DNA of 59,324 nt. It comes from a virus. The stretch covers positions 1-59,324 of IMG/VR virus record IMGVR_UViG_3300033571_016365. One strand, written 5' to 3'. This document shows, in pieces, positions 55,143 to 57,632 of the stretch (position 1 is its first letter; every line of letters begins with the position of its first letter). A program made the translations under genes and the position numbers. A model generated the notes under the pieces. That model searched no databases and had not been told where the DNA came from. It saw only the letters and a program-made list of their open reading frames with translations.

Positions 55143-56088
55143 TCTTGTACCACTCATAAGTTTCATAGATTCCTTGACGAATCCCAATCTTAGGACTCCA
55201 ACCAAGAGATTTGATTTTGTCTACATTCAAGACTTTTCTAGGAGTACCATTAGGTTTAGAAGTATCCCATTCAATTTTACCTGGATAATCAACAATAATA
55301 GAAATTAATTCTGCAAGTTCTTTAATAGTAAGATCTTCACCAGTTCCTACATTAATAATTTCAGAATCATCGTATGAAATCATACATCTGAAACATGCTT
55401 CTGCAAGATCATCAACATGAAGAAACTCTCTCCTTGCAGATCCATCTCCCCACAATTCTACTGATGGACCATACCAAGGACCACCTGGATCTATTACATA
55501 TCCCTTTCTAGCAGCTTCATGAAACTTCCTAATCATTGCAGGAAGAACATGTGATGTTTCCAAATCAAAATTATCATTAGTACCATAAAGATTTGTAGGC
55601 ATCAGTGAGATGGCATTGAACCCATACTGTTCTCTATATGCCTGACACATCATAATACCAGATATCTTGGCAATTGCATAGGCATCGTTTGTTGGTTCCA
55701 AAGAACCAGTCATAAACTGATCTTCTCTGATTGGTTGAGTAGCAAACTTAGGATAGATGCAAGAGGAACCAAGGAACAGAAGTTTAGTTGCATTCCAACG
55801 ATTAGCAGACTCAATAATATTAGTTTGAATGCGAAGATTCTCAGTTAGAAAATCTGCCTTATAGTTATTGTTTGCCATAATGCCACCAACTTTAGCAGCG
55901 GCAACAAAAACATACTCGGGTTTTGCTAACTGAAAAAACCTATCAGTTTCTTCTTGGTCAGTAAAATCTACAATATGGCGAGTTCCTTTCATGATATTAG
56001 TATATCCTTTACTCTCAAGATTTCTGACAATTGCCGATCCAACCATTCCATTGGCACCGGCAACCAATACTTTAGAATTACTGTCCAT
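55120..56088 (-). CDS. fcl: GDP-L-fucose synthase
   Basis: A 322-residue short-chain reductase/epimerase from ATG 56088 ([20 protein letters not shown]). The NADP loop [27 protein letters not shown] (catalytic Ser), [16 protein letters not shown] (Tyr-x-x-x-Lys), and [20 protein letters not shown] are those of Fcl/WcaG. It epimerises and reduces GDP-4-keto-6-deoxy-mannose to GDP-L-fucose. It overlaps gmd by 11 nt, so both steps are coupled. Length is as in bacteria (~320 aa). Confidence 0.95.
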
Positions 56089-57079
56089 AAATGCACATAT
56101 CCTCAACTAATTGATCAAATGAAATCTTAGGTTCCCAACCTAATTCAACTTTTGCCTTAGAGGCATCACCTAACAAAGTCTCTACTTCAGCAGGTCTAAA
56201 ATATTTAGGATCTACTTTAATAACCTCTTTTCCAGTATTAGTATCAATCCCAACTTCATCCATATATTTACCTTTCCATTCAATATTAAATCCAAAGTAA
56301 GGTGCTGCTTTATCTACAAATTCTCTGACTGAGTATTGTTCTCCTGTTGCAATAACATAATCATCTGCATATTTTTGCTGGAGCATTAACCACATTGCTT
56401 CTACATAATCTTTTGCATGACCCCAATCTCTTTGGGCATTAAGGTTGCCCAGATATAATGTATCTTGCAAACCACAAGAAATTTTAGATAGTGCTCTAAC
56501 AATCTTTCTAGTTACAAATGTTTCTCCTCTTCTAGGAGATTCGTGATTGAACAGGATGCCAGTACAGGCATACATGTCATACGCTTCTCTATAGTTCTTT
56601 GTGATCCAATAAGCATATAACTTAGCAACACCATAAGGAGACCTAGGATAAAAAGGTGTTGTTTCTTTCTGAGGGATTTCCTGAACAAGTCCATACAGTT
56701 CAGATGTAGATGCCTGATAGATTCTCACTTTATCTTCCATACCAAGCAACCTAACTGATTCTAGGATCCTTAGTGTGCCAACACCATCAACATCAGCAGT
56801 GTACTCAGGCATCTCAAAAGATACCTTTACATGACTTTGTGCAGCAAGGTTATAGATTTCATCTGGTTGAACTTGTTGAATAACTCTAACTAAGTTCGTA
56901 GCATCAGTAAGGTCCCCATAATGCAAATTAATTGAATCATATACATGATCAATACGATGCGTATTGATAAGGGAAGACCTTCTAATAATGCCATGAACTT
57001 CATAACCTTTTTGGAGTAATAATTCAGCAAGATACGATCCATCTTGGCCAGTGATACCAGTAATTAAAGCTACTTTCAT
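56078..57079 (-). CDS. gmd: GDP-mannose 4,6-dehydratase
   Basis: A 333-residue protein. [20 protein letters not shown] (NADP loop), [39 protein letters not shown] (Thr-Ser-Glu active site) and [20 protein letters not shown] (Tyr-x-x-x-Lys) are the Gmd signature, with [20 protein letters not shown] later. It makes GDP-4-keto-6-deoxy-D-mannose, the Fcl substrate. It heads the 12.2-kb glycan operon. A TATAAT box at 57100-57105 lies 20 nt upstream. Confidence 0.96.
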
Positions 57080-57099: not shown

Positions 57100-57128
57100 A
57101 TTATACTAAAAAAGGAGAGTTTATGCAA
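57100..57128 (-). promoter_or_regulatory. possible promoter for the gmd operon, embedded in a terminator
   Basis: TATAAT (57105-57100) with TTGCAT (57128-57123) 17 nt upstream on the minus strand. The -35 box matches only three consensus bases and sits in the loop of the terminator hairpin, so the promoter is tentative. Confidence 0.45.
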
Positions 57129-57134
57129 CTCTCC
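57108..57134 (-). terminator. terminator after the tRNA-Ile / repeat RNA transcript
   Basis: GGAGAGTT (57134-57127 on minus) and AACTCTCC (57121-57114) form an 8-bp perfect stem with a 5-nt loop followed by TTTTTT (57113-57108). It separates the tRNA/repeat region from gmd. Confidence 0.88.
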
Positions 57135-57139
57135 TATTA

Positions 57140-57336
57140 GGTCTTTCATGCACGCCACCAATTCTTTAACTGGAAATTGGAAACCAGGCGGGAGTAACCT
57201 CCATCCGCACCACCAATTTTTTGAGGAAATTGGAAACCTAATGAGGGTCATATTGACTCCACCAGGATTTTTAAAGTCTCTCCATGACTGAAGGGGGTTC
57301 ATCCCGACCAGGGTTTTTAAAGTCTCTCCATGACTA
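57140..57336 (-). ncRNA. structured repeat region, candidate non-coding RNA
   Basis: No convincing coding frame. Two pairs of direct repeats occur. A 22-nt exact repeat lies at 57268-57289 and 57314-57335. A 14-nt exact repeat lies at 57172-57185 and 57225-57238, each copy within a longer hairpin (CCAATT/AATTGG at 57158-57180; CCAATTT/AAATTGG at 57213-57233). Another stem is GCGG/CCGC around 57188-57207. The region lies between tRNA-Ile and a strong terminator in one transcription direction, so it would be the 3' part of a tRNA transcript or an independent small RNA. Confidence 0.5.
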
Positions 57337-57337
57337 T

Positions 57338-57361
57338 ATTTGCTATTTGCGAATAGCAAAT
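57338..57361 (-). other. 10-bp hairpin at the 3' end of tRNA-Ile
   Basis: ATTTGCTATT and AATAGCAAAT pair perfectly around a 4-nt loop and touch the discriminator base of the tRNA. Possibly a processing signal for tRNA 3' maturation. Confidence 0.55.
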
Positions 57362-57432
57362 GGGAATACTGGGAGTTGAACCCAGACTAAGCCCTTATAA
57401 GGAGCCCGCTCTAACCATTAAGCTATACTCCC
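57361..57432 (-). tRNA. tRNA-Ile (anticodon UAU)
   Basis: 72-nt cloverleaf: acceptor GGGAGTA with TATTCCC, D arm GCTT..GAGC, anticodon stem GGCTC/GGGCT with loop CTTATAA giving UAU, T arm CTGGG TTCAACT CCCAG, discriminator A, CCA not encoded. UAU reads AUA directly. Bacteria normally use a modified CAU anticodon for AUA, so this tRNA is notable. The anticodon stem has two G-U pairs, making the call slightly less certain. Confidence 0.85.
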
Positions 57433-57440
57433 TAAAAAAG

Positions 57441-57632
57441 TTAAGGTCCATCTTCATGTTCTGTGTGGATCTTAACAAATTCATCAACTAGACTTAGTTG
57501 GTTTTTTCCAACATAAGGAGTCATTACAGCATTACCATATTCACTTGTGATTAAAAATGATTCTCCATTTTCAACTCTATTCAACAAATTATCAAAATCT
57601 TGTTGAAAGTGTTCAATAGTAAATTGTTCCAT
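57441..57632 (-). CDS. Phd/YefM-like antitoxin without visible toxin
   Basis: A 63-residue protein. FTIEHFQQDFDNLLNRVENG and ESFLITSEYGNAVMTPY have the Phd/YefM layout (helix, V-x-x-G-E-x-x-x-I-x-x beta hairpin, then G-x-x-x-x-x-x-P). No toxin-like gene lies next to it; the upstream genes encode unrelated small proteins. It has its own sigma-70 promoter at 57654-57682. It may neutralise a host toxin or act as a transcription regulator. Confidence 0.7.
   Translation of the reverse strand: MEQFTIEHFQQDFDNLLNRVENGESFLITSEYGNAVMTPYVGKNQLSLVDEFVKIHTEHEDGP

Follow-up and report, generated by a model that had tools for sequence, protein, structure and literature searches.

A conserved pseudoknotted RNA array at the cyanophage wcaG locus, half of it a known RNA and half an undescribed module

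The locus described here raises the question of what occupies the roughly 220 nt between a tRNA-Ile gene and gmd in a 59-kb virus record (IMG/VR IMGVR_UViG_3300033571_016365; 59,324 nt), the whole of which was analyzed and is referred to as the window. An earlier note, made from the letters alone, had proposed that this region lacks a credible gene, consists of two duplicated structural units rather than spacer, and might be an undescribed phage small RNA. All of the elements concerned lie on the minus strand, which is also the strand that the note took to be transcribed. Read in this direction from 57432 to 57107, the locus begins with tRNA-Ile (57361–57432; anticodon TAT; detected by ARAGORN and by Rfam RF00005 with 65.3 bits), which adjoins the 5′ side of the array. 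It is followed by a hairpin of 10 bp (ATTTGCTATT/AATAGCAAAT; 57338–57361), recognized from sequence and fold, which has an AT-rich stem without a T-run, touches the tRNA end as the note had stated, and separates the tRNA from two units of about 46 nt (unit 1, 57290–57336; unit 2, 57246–57290). A 98-nt element (57144–57241) comes next, and then an intrinsic-terminator-like hairpin (AGGAGAGTT-GCATA-AACTCTCCT plus T-run; 57107–57135) whose 9-bp stem and T-run (57135–57113) correspond to the terminator at which the RNA had been said to end. The next gene downstream is gmd, encoding GDP-mannose 4,6-dehydratase (56078–57079; Pfam PF16363, 520 bits).

The repeats that drew attention to this region are present as described. 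The 22-nt exact repeat, with its 46-nt offset, is contained in a 29-nt direct repeat (57261–57289 and 57307–57335; 97% identical, 46 nt from start to start), and an exact repeat of 22 nt inside about 220 nt is not a product of chance (order 1e-9 by our own estimate). The 14-nt repeat GGAAATTGGAAACC occurs at 57172 and 57225 with a spacing of 53 nt. The predicted fold of the minus strand from 57362 to 57100 lies 2.8 standard deviations below that of dinucleotide shuffles, 1 of 200 of which was equally low. We rejected a coding reading based on ORFs of 90 and 54 amino acids because the distances between conserved anchors in relatives are not multiples of three, being spread over all three frames (41/37/24), and because the frames are closed in most relatives; the ORF starting from the in-element ATG is shorter than 40 codons in 47 of 61. 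The array is thus, as proposed, without a credible gene. It is a real and conserved RNA, one half of which is known and the other half of which is an undescribed module of the same locus.

The known half is the 98-nt element, which matches the wcaG RNA (RF01761) over model positions 1–98 of 98 with 94.1 bits against a gathering cut-off of 42. The claim that the RNA is undescribed therefore stands for the 46-nt units and falls for the half that holds the 14-nt repeat, since this repeat (GGTTTCCAATTTCC) is the core common to both wcaG halves. Each half is an H-type pseudoknot; for the second, covariation supports crossing helices, whereas the structure line of RF01761 contains hairpins only. The family dates from 2010, when it was put forward as a riboswitch candidate that is almost confined to marine metagenomes and cyanophages and precedes exopolysaccharide genes or high-light genes (PMC2864571), and phage isolates annotated later carry the label "wcaG" (PMC9964418, PMC9602691). 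The window agrees with the nucleotide-sugar gene context of the family in that gmd and an fcl-like gene lie downstream of wcaG on the same strand, and in relatives the downstream genes are mostly those for nucleotide sugars and surface glycans.

The undescribed half consists of the two units, which are structured and nearly identical. Each is built from a covarying stem of 4 bp, a loop of 7 nt (NYGGNNN), an A-rich linker, and the sequence CTGGT[C/G]G, whose variable base defines a C type and a G type. Unit 1 is of the C type (stem AGTC/GACT, loop ATGGAGA, CTGGTCG, followed by the hairpin GGG-atgaa-CCC), and unit 2, with the same stem and loop, is of the G type (CTGGTGG, followed by the hairpin GGAGTCA-at-aTGACCC). 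Stem types among relatives include AGTC/GACT, AGAC/GTCT, CGTC/GACG, CGTG/CACG, TGTC/GACA, and CGCC/GGCG. Because the sequences in our core counts and alignment were preselected for a paired stem, the fair test of the stem is a sample gathered independently of it, in which pairs 1–4 are formed in 83–100% of sequences versus 46–99% with shuffled partners; pairs 5 and 6, beyond the 4-bp stem, are not formed in this sample. With the loop numbered N1-Y2-G3-G4-N5-N-N, loop base 2 is matched by a complementary linker base −3 in 184 of 184 distinct cores among the matches listed (C:G 114, T:A 70). In the class with the long, 11-nt linker, loop base 5 is likewise complementary to linker base −4 (81/81 among the matches listed; G:C 42, A:T 34, T:A 5), and in the class with the 9-nt linker both of these bases are A, which the search patterns partly impose. 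An alignment of 76 sequences restricted to the named pairs is paired in every cell and falls to 17–24% when the partner is slid by one column; for these sequences and for the 184 cores alike, a paired stem was a condition of choice and the pseudoknot pairs were outside the selection. Since the loop-linker pairing is found in every distinct sequence, we conclude that the unit is a small pseudoknot. A loop-tail helix of GG with CC was considered and dropped, the covarying partners being loop 2/−3 and loop 5/−4, and CsrA-type ANGGA sites were set aside as well, since they fit A-first loops only, T-first and C-first loops having no ANGGA. Covariation and conservation among cyanophages, on which the earlier note had let its proposal depend, are both strong.

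The two units represent a widespread cyanophage RNA element that is not described in Rfam 15: the segment that contains them (57246–57336) matched no family of that release, even at E ≤ 10, nor did the units match the wcaG model at E ≤ 10, and a description of the unit was not found in the literature searched. An exact 21-mer from the unit is present in 57 IMG/VR contigs, and three pattern scans of fetched contigs, which require GG and CTGGT and leave the stem unconstrained, gave at least 386 distinct instances in at least 352 loci; the conservation of GG and CTGGT is therefore partly imposed by the patterns and is no independent measure. Our model of the unit (R1), whose seeds were found partly through the 21-nt core of the window unit, recovers unit 1 with 48.3 bits (E 1.2e-10; 57305–57336) and unit 2 with 43.8 bits (E 1.7e-9; 57259–57290). 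Two strict patterns had no match in 84,980 species genomes searched for cellular homologues. T4 gave a match at E = 0.04 that we take as chance, and none at E ≤ 0.01.

Units occur singly or in pairs, and the pairs obey a strict rule. All 159 tandem pairs among the matches listed combine one CTGGTC unit with one CTGGTG unit, the C type coming first in 109 and the G type in 50; since random combination would give about half mixed pairs, the pair apparently acts as one structure. The element is also tied to wcaG. Among 20 cyanophage isolate genomes wcaG is present in 15, and units are found in 14 of these (absent from Syn9) and in none of the five without wcaG (P-SSM2, P-SSM4, P-HM1, S-TIM5, and S-SSM7); many isolates were picked for matching the window, so the informative part of this comparison is the agreement between unit and wcaG, and the fraction of positives is no estimate of prevalence. 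Every one of the 12 metagenomic loci with units that were scanned contains wcaG as well. The units and the wcaG RNA are built alike, with TGGT[C/G] coming after a small pseudoknot, and in S-PM2, Syn1, and S-SCSM2R the wcaG match encloses a unit, which replaces the first pseudoknot. Upstream of the common TGGTGCGGATGG domain we find the usual wcaG pseudoknot in 152 cases, a third type of pseudoknot in 11, or modules of the unit type, and the three are interchangeable at this site. Judging from these comparisons, it is almost certain that the region is an array of four pseudoknotted modules characteristic of the cyanomyovirus wcaG locus, two of them undescribed, with tandem units forming a C + G pair and wcaG following. 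The third type is itself an H-type pseudoknot (for example GTCC..GTCGG..GGAC..CCGAC before TGGTGCGG) that stands in for the first pseudoknot of wcaG in about 11 loci, such as L172:7612-7660 and L189:133-181, and a further variant, CCCC..GCAGG..CCTGC, is found in several more.

The position of the array is as informative as its structure. In 85 of 117 distinct arrays among the matches listed, the 110 nt after wcaG include a terminator-like hairpin, compared with 6% of random segments, so that the placement of this hairpin in the window is conserved in relatives. A promoter-like −35 overlaps a hairpin of at least 5 bp in 77 of the 117 (again among the matches listed), mostly 17 nt before a TATAAT-like −10. 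The window has the same arrangement (57100–57128; TTGCAT, 17 nt, TATAAT), with a −10 that agrees with the consensus at 6/6 positions and a −35 that agrees at 3/6, owing to which the consensus scan did not list it; relatives commonly have TTGACA or TTTACA. Because this terminator and promoter-like sequence stand between wcaG and gmd, the RNA is probably the tail of an early transcript of tRNA and small ORFs and not a gmd leader. On the upstream side, among the matches listed, 133 of 264 distinct arrays start from −14 to +45 nt relative to the stop codon of an ORF and 39 have a tRNA no more than 60 nt upstream; a tRNA is thus not essential to the element. From these positions, arrays appear to occupy the 3′ end of an early transcript or its vicinity, or to separate cistrons, more often than they belong to the leader of a sugar gene. 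The idea that the fused terminator and promoter is specific to wcaG was rejected, as the same cassette precedes other genes without wcaG. Such fused terminators, in which the loop or an arm carries the −35 and the T-run lies in the promoter spacer (57138–57100 in the window), were seen before many cyanophage genes, both where wcaG is present and where it is absent (146 distinct cases), and this is a general cyanophage device.

We tentatively favor, short of regarding it as probable, a role of the array as a cis-acting 3′ or intercistronic segment of an early transcript, ahead of a riboswitch leader and then of a small RNA. With boundaries that we infer from the sequence, the array would be co-transcribed from upstream with small ORFs and tRNA-Ile and would stop at the terminator, and the overlapping promoter-like sequence would start a separate gmd transcript about 10–15 nt before the gmd ATG. 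The array may then act in cis on the transcript that carries it, its folded segment setting the ends, processing, or stability of that transcript or the translation of neighboring small ORFs, perhaps with the help of a protein or ligand that binds it. On the opposing side, the strictly conserved G3G4 and CTGGT, whose conservation the search patterns partly impose, suggest that a partner recognizes them and that the array is more than a physical obstacle. That unrelated pseudoknots can be swapped at a single site speaks for the fold plus TGGT as the feature that matters, not a single ligand pocket. A further reading is that of a modular phage RNA system in which several unrelated H-type pseudoknots serve as exchangeable scaffolds for a UGGU[C/G] sequence, and a C-type and a G-type module join as a heterodimer that makes up a single regulatory or binding site; this would be a long shot; its target could possibly be a ligand or, because UGGU complements ACCA, the 3′ ends of tRNAs beside phage tRNA genes. 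Several observations count against a transcript-end segment: the weak −35 in the window, the sugar and glycan genes downstream, which fit a leader that regulates them, and, among the matches listed, the 12 of 117 wcaG arrays that immediately precede an ORF with no terminator in between and the 92 of 147 arrays without wcaG that are no more than 80 nt from the start of an ORF, a leader-like position.

The main alternative, along the lines suggested for wcaG in 2010, is that the units and wcaG form a riboswitch or otherwise regulated 5′ leader that senses a metabolite or binds a phage protein and thereby regulates gmd and comparable sugar or high-light genes at the level of read-through or translation. 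The enrichment of nucleotide-sugar enzyme genes downstream, the conserved covarying fold, and the conserved unpaired bases within the pseudoknot, which are typical of aptamers, would all be expected of such a leader, as would the solitary units that end 4–30 nt before an ATG, many with GGAG-like bases after CTGGT, and wcaG is a published riboswitch candidate (PMC2864571). Set against this are the terminator, usually with its overlapping promoter-like sequence, that parts the RNA from the gene in the 85 of 117 wcaG arrays counted above among the matches listed, the mixed contexts (tRNAs, small ORFs, and tail, porin, and glycan genes), and the swapping of different pseudoknots at one position, which is odd for a single aptamer. 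An expression platform that works through terminator pairing also finds no support: terminator arms have complementarity of 7.24 nt to their own wcaG and of 7.20 nt to the wcaG of other phages, and antiterminator pairing between the arms and wcaG was not seen. The free variation of the arms, and pairing with their own wcaG that is no stronger than with others, argue against a classical antiterminator switch, and we consider a leader of this kind doubtful, though the nearest competitor to a cis-acting transcript-end segment.

The earlier note had raised the possibility of a small RNA processed from the tRNA transcript. For a stable, trans-acting RNA cut from the tRNA-Ile/small-ORF transcript, the T4 tRNA cluster, which yields stable non-tRNA RNAs, offers a comparison. 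The probable end of the transcript at the terminator after wcaG, the promoter-like sequence before gmd, the hairpin that separates tRNA from array in the window, the 39 of 264 arrays among the matches listed that follow a tRNA, and the presence of wcaG and manA among tRNA genes in S-CREM1 are consistent with this. Most arrays follow protein genes, however, and solitary units lie between ORFs inside operons, where a separate RNA would not form; we judge a small RNA improbable. A mobile or duplicated intergenic repeat without an RNA function, to which the one to few copies per genome and the 97% identical duplicate in the window might point, is disfavored and has hardly any credibility, as the covariation of stem and pseudoknot, the C/G rule, and the co-occurrence with wcaG require selection on RNA.

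Among known RNAs, the unit resembles preQ1-I-like H-type pseudoknots and tandem riboswitches, in which a short hairpin has a loop that pairs with a 3′ A-rich tail and copies sometimes occur in tandem. It too has a short hairpin, a loop that pairs with an A-rich linker, and tandem copies; it differs in having no sequence match and a helix of two covarying pairs with GG looped out. The STAXI motif (RF01728) is a function-orphan pseudoknot that occurs as two or three tandem copies (PMC2864571) but was reported in Enterobacteriales near DNA-handling genes, and it has no match in the window array at E ≤ 10. The manA RNA (RF01745), also a cyanophage RNA, a riboswitch candidate from 2010, and located among tRNA genes, is a separate family, and identity with it was rejected as it has no match in the window. 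As for the wcaG RNA, the tandem units lie outside the RF01761 model and are not described with wcaG in the text consulted (PMC2864571). A second undescribed and strongly covarying element is thus added to the locus of a riboswitch candidate orphaned since 2010, and the position of wcaG relative to promoter and terminator here, which suggests a transcript end, puts its status as a 5′ leader in question. The loop-linker pairs, the pairing of C and G units, and the exchange of pseudoknots supply testable rules for an element that recurs in cultured cyanomyoviruses and in hundreds of environmental contigs, at a time when the RNAs encoded by marine cyanophages are poorly understood.

Some further observations were made in passing. 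In cyanophages the manA RNA, although classified as cis-regulatory, sits precisely between a pair of tRNA genes and is not directly followed by a protein gene (L067:6872-7081 and, in S-CREM1, L358:2079-2293). A 63-aa ORF on the minus strand of the window (57441–57632) resembles Phd-type antitoxins by eye and has no Pfam match, and a Phd-like gene is annotated close upstream of units in S-PM2, S-SM2, and DSL-LC03. Positions 1–2138 of the window contain a long, degenerate tandem repeat with a 9-bp period (AATCCTTGG), which probably encodes collagen-like Gly-X-Y repeats from the minus strand.
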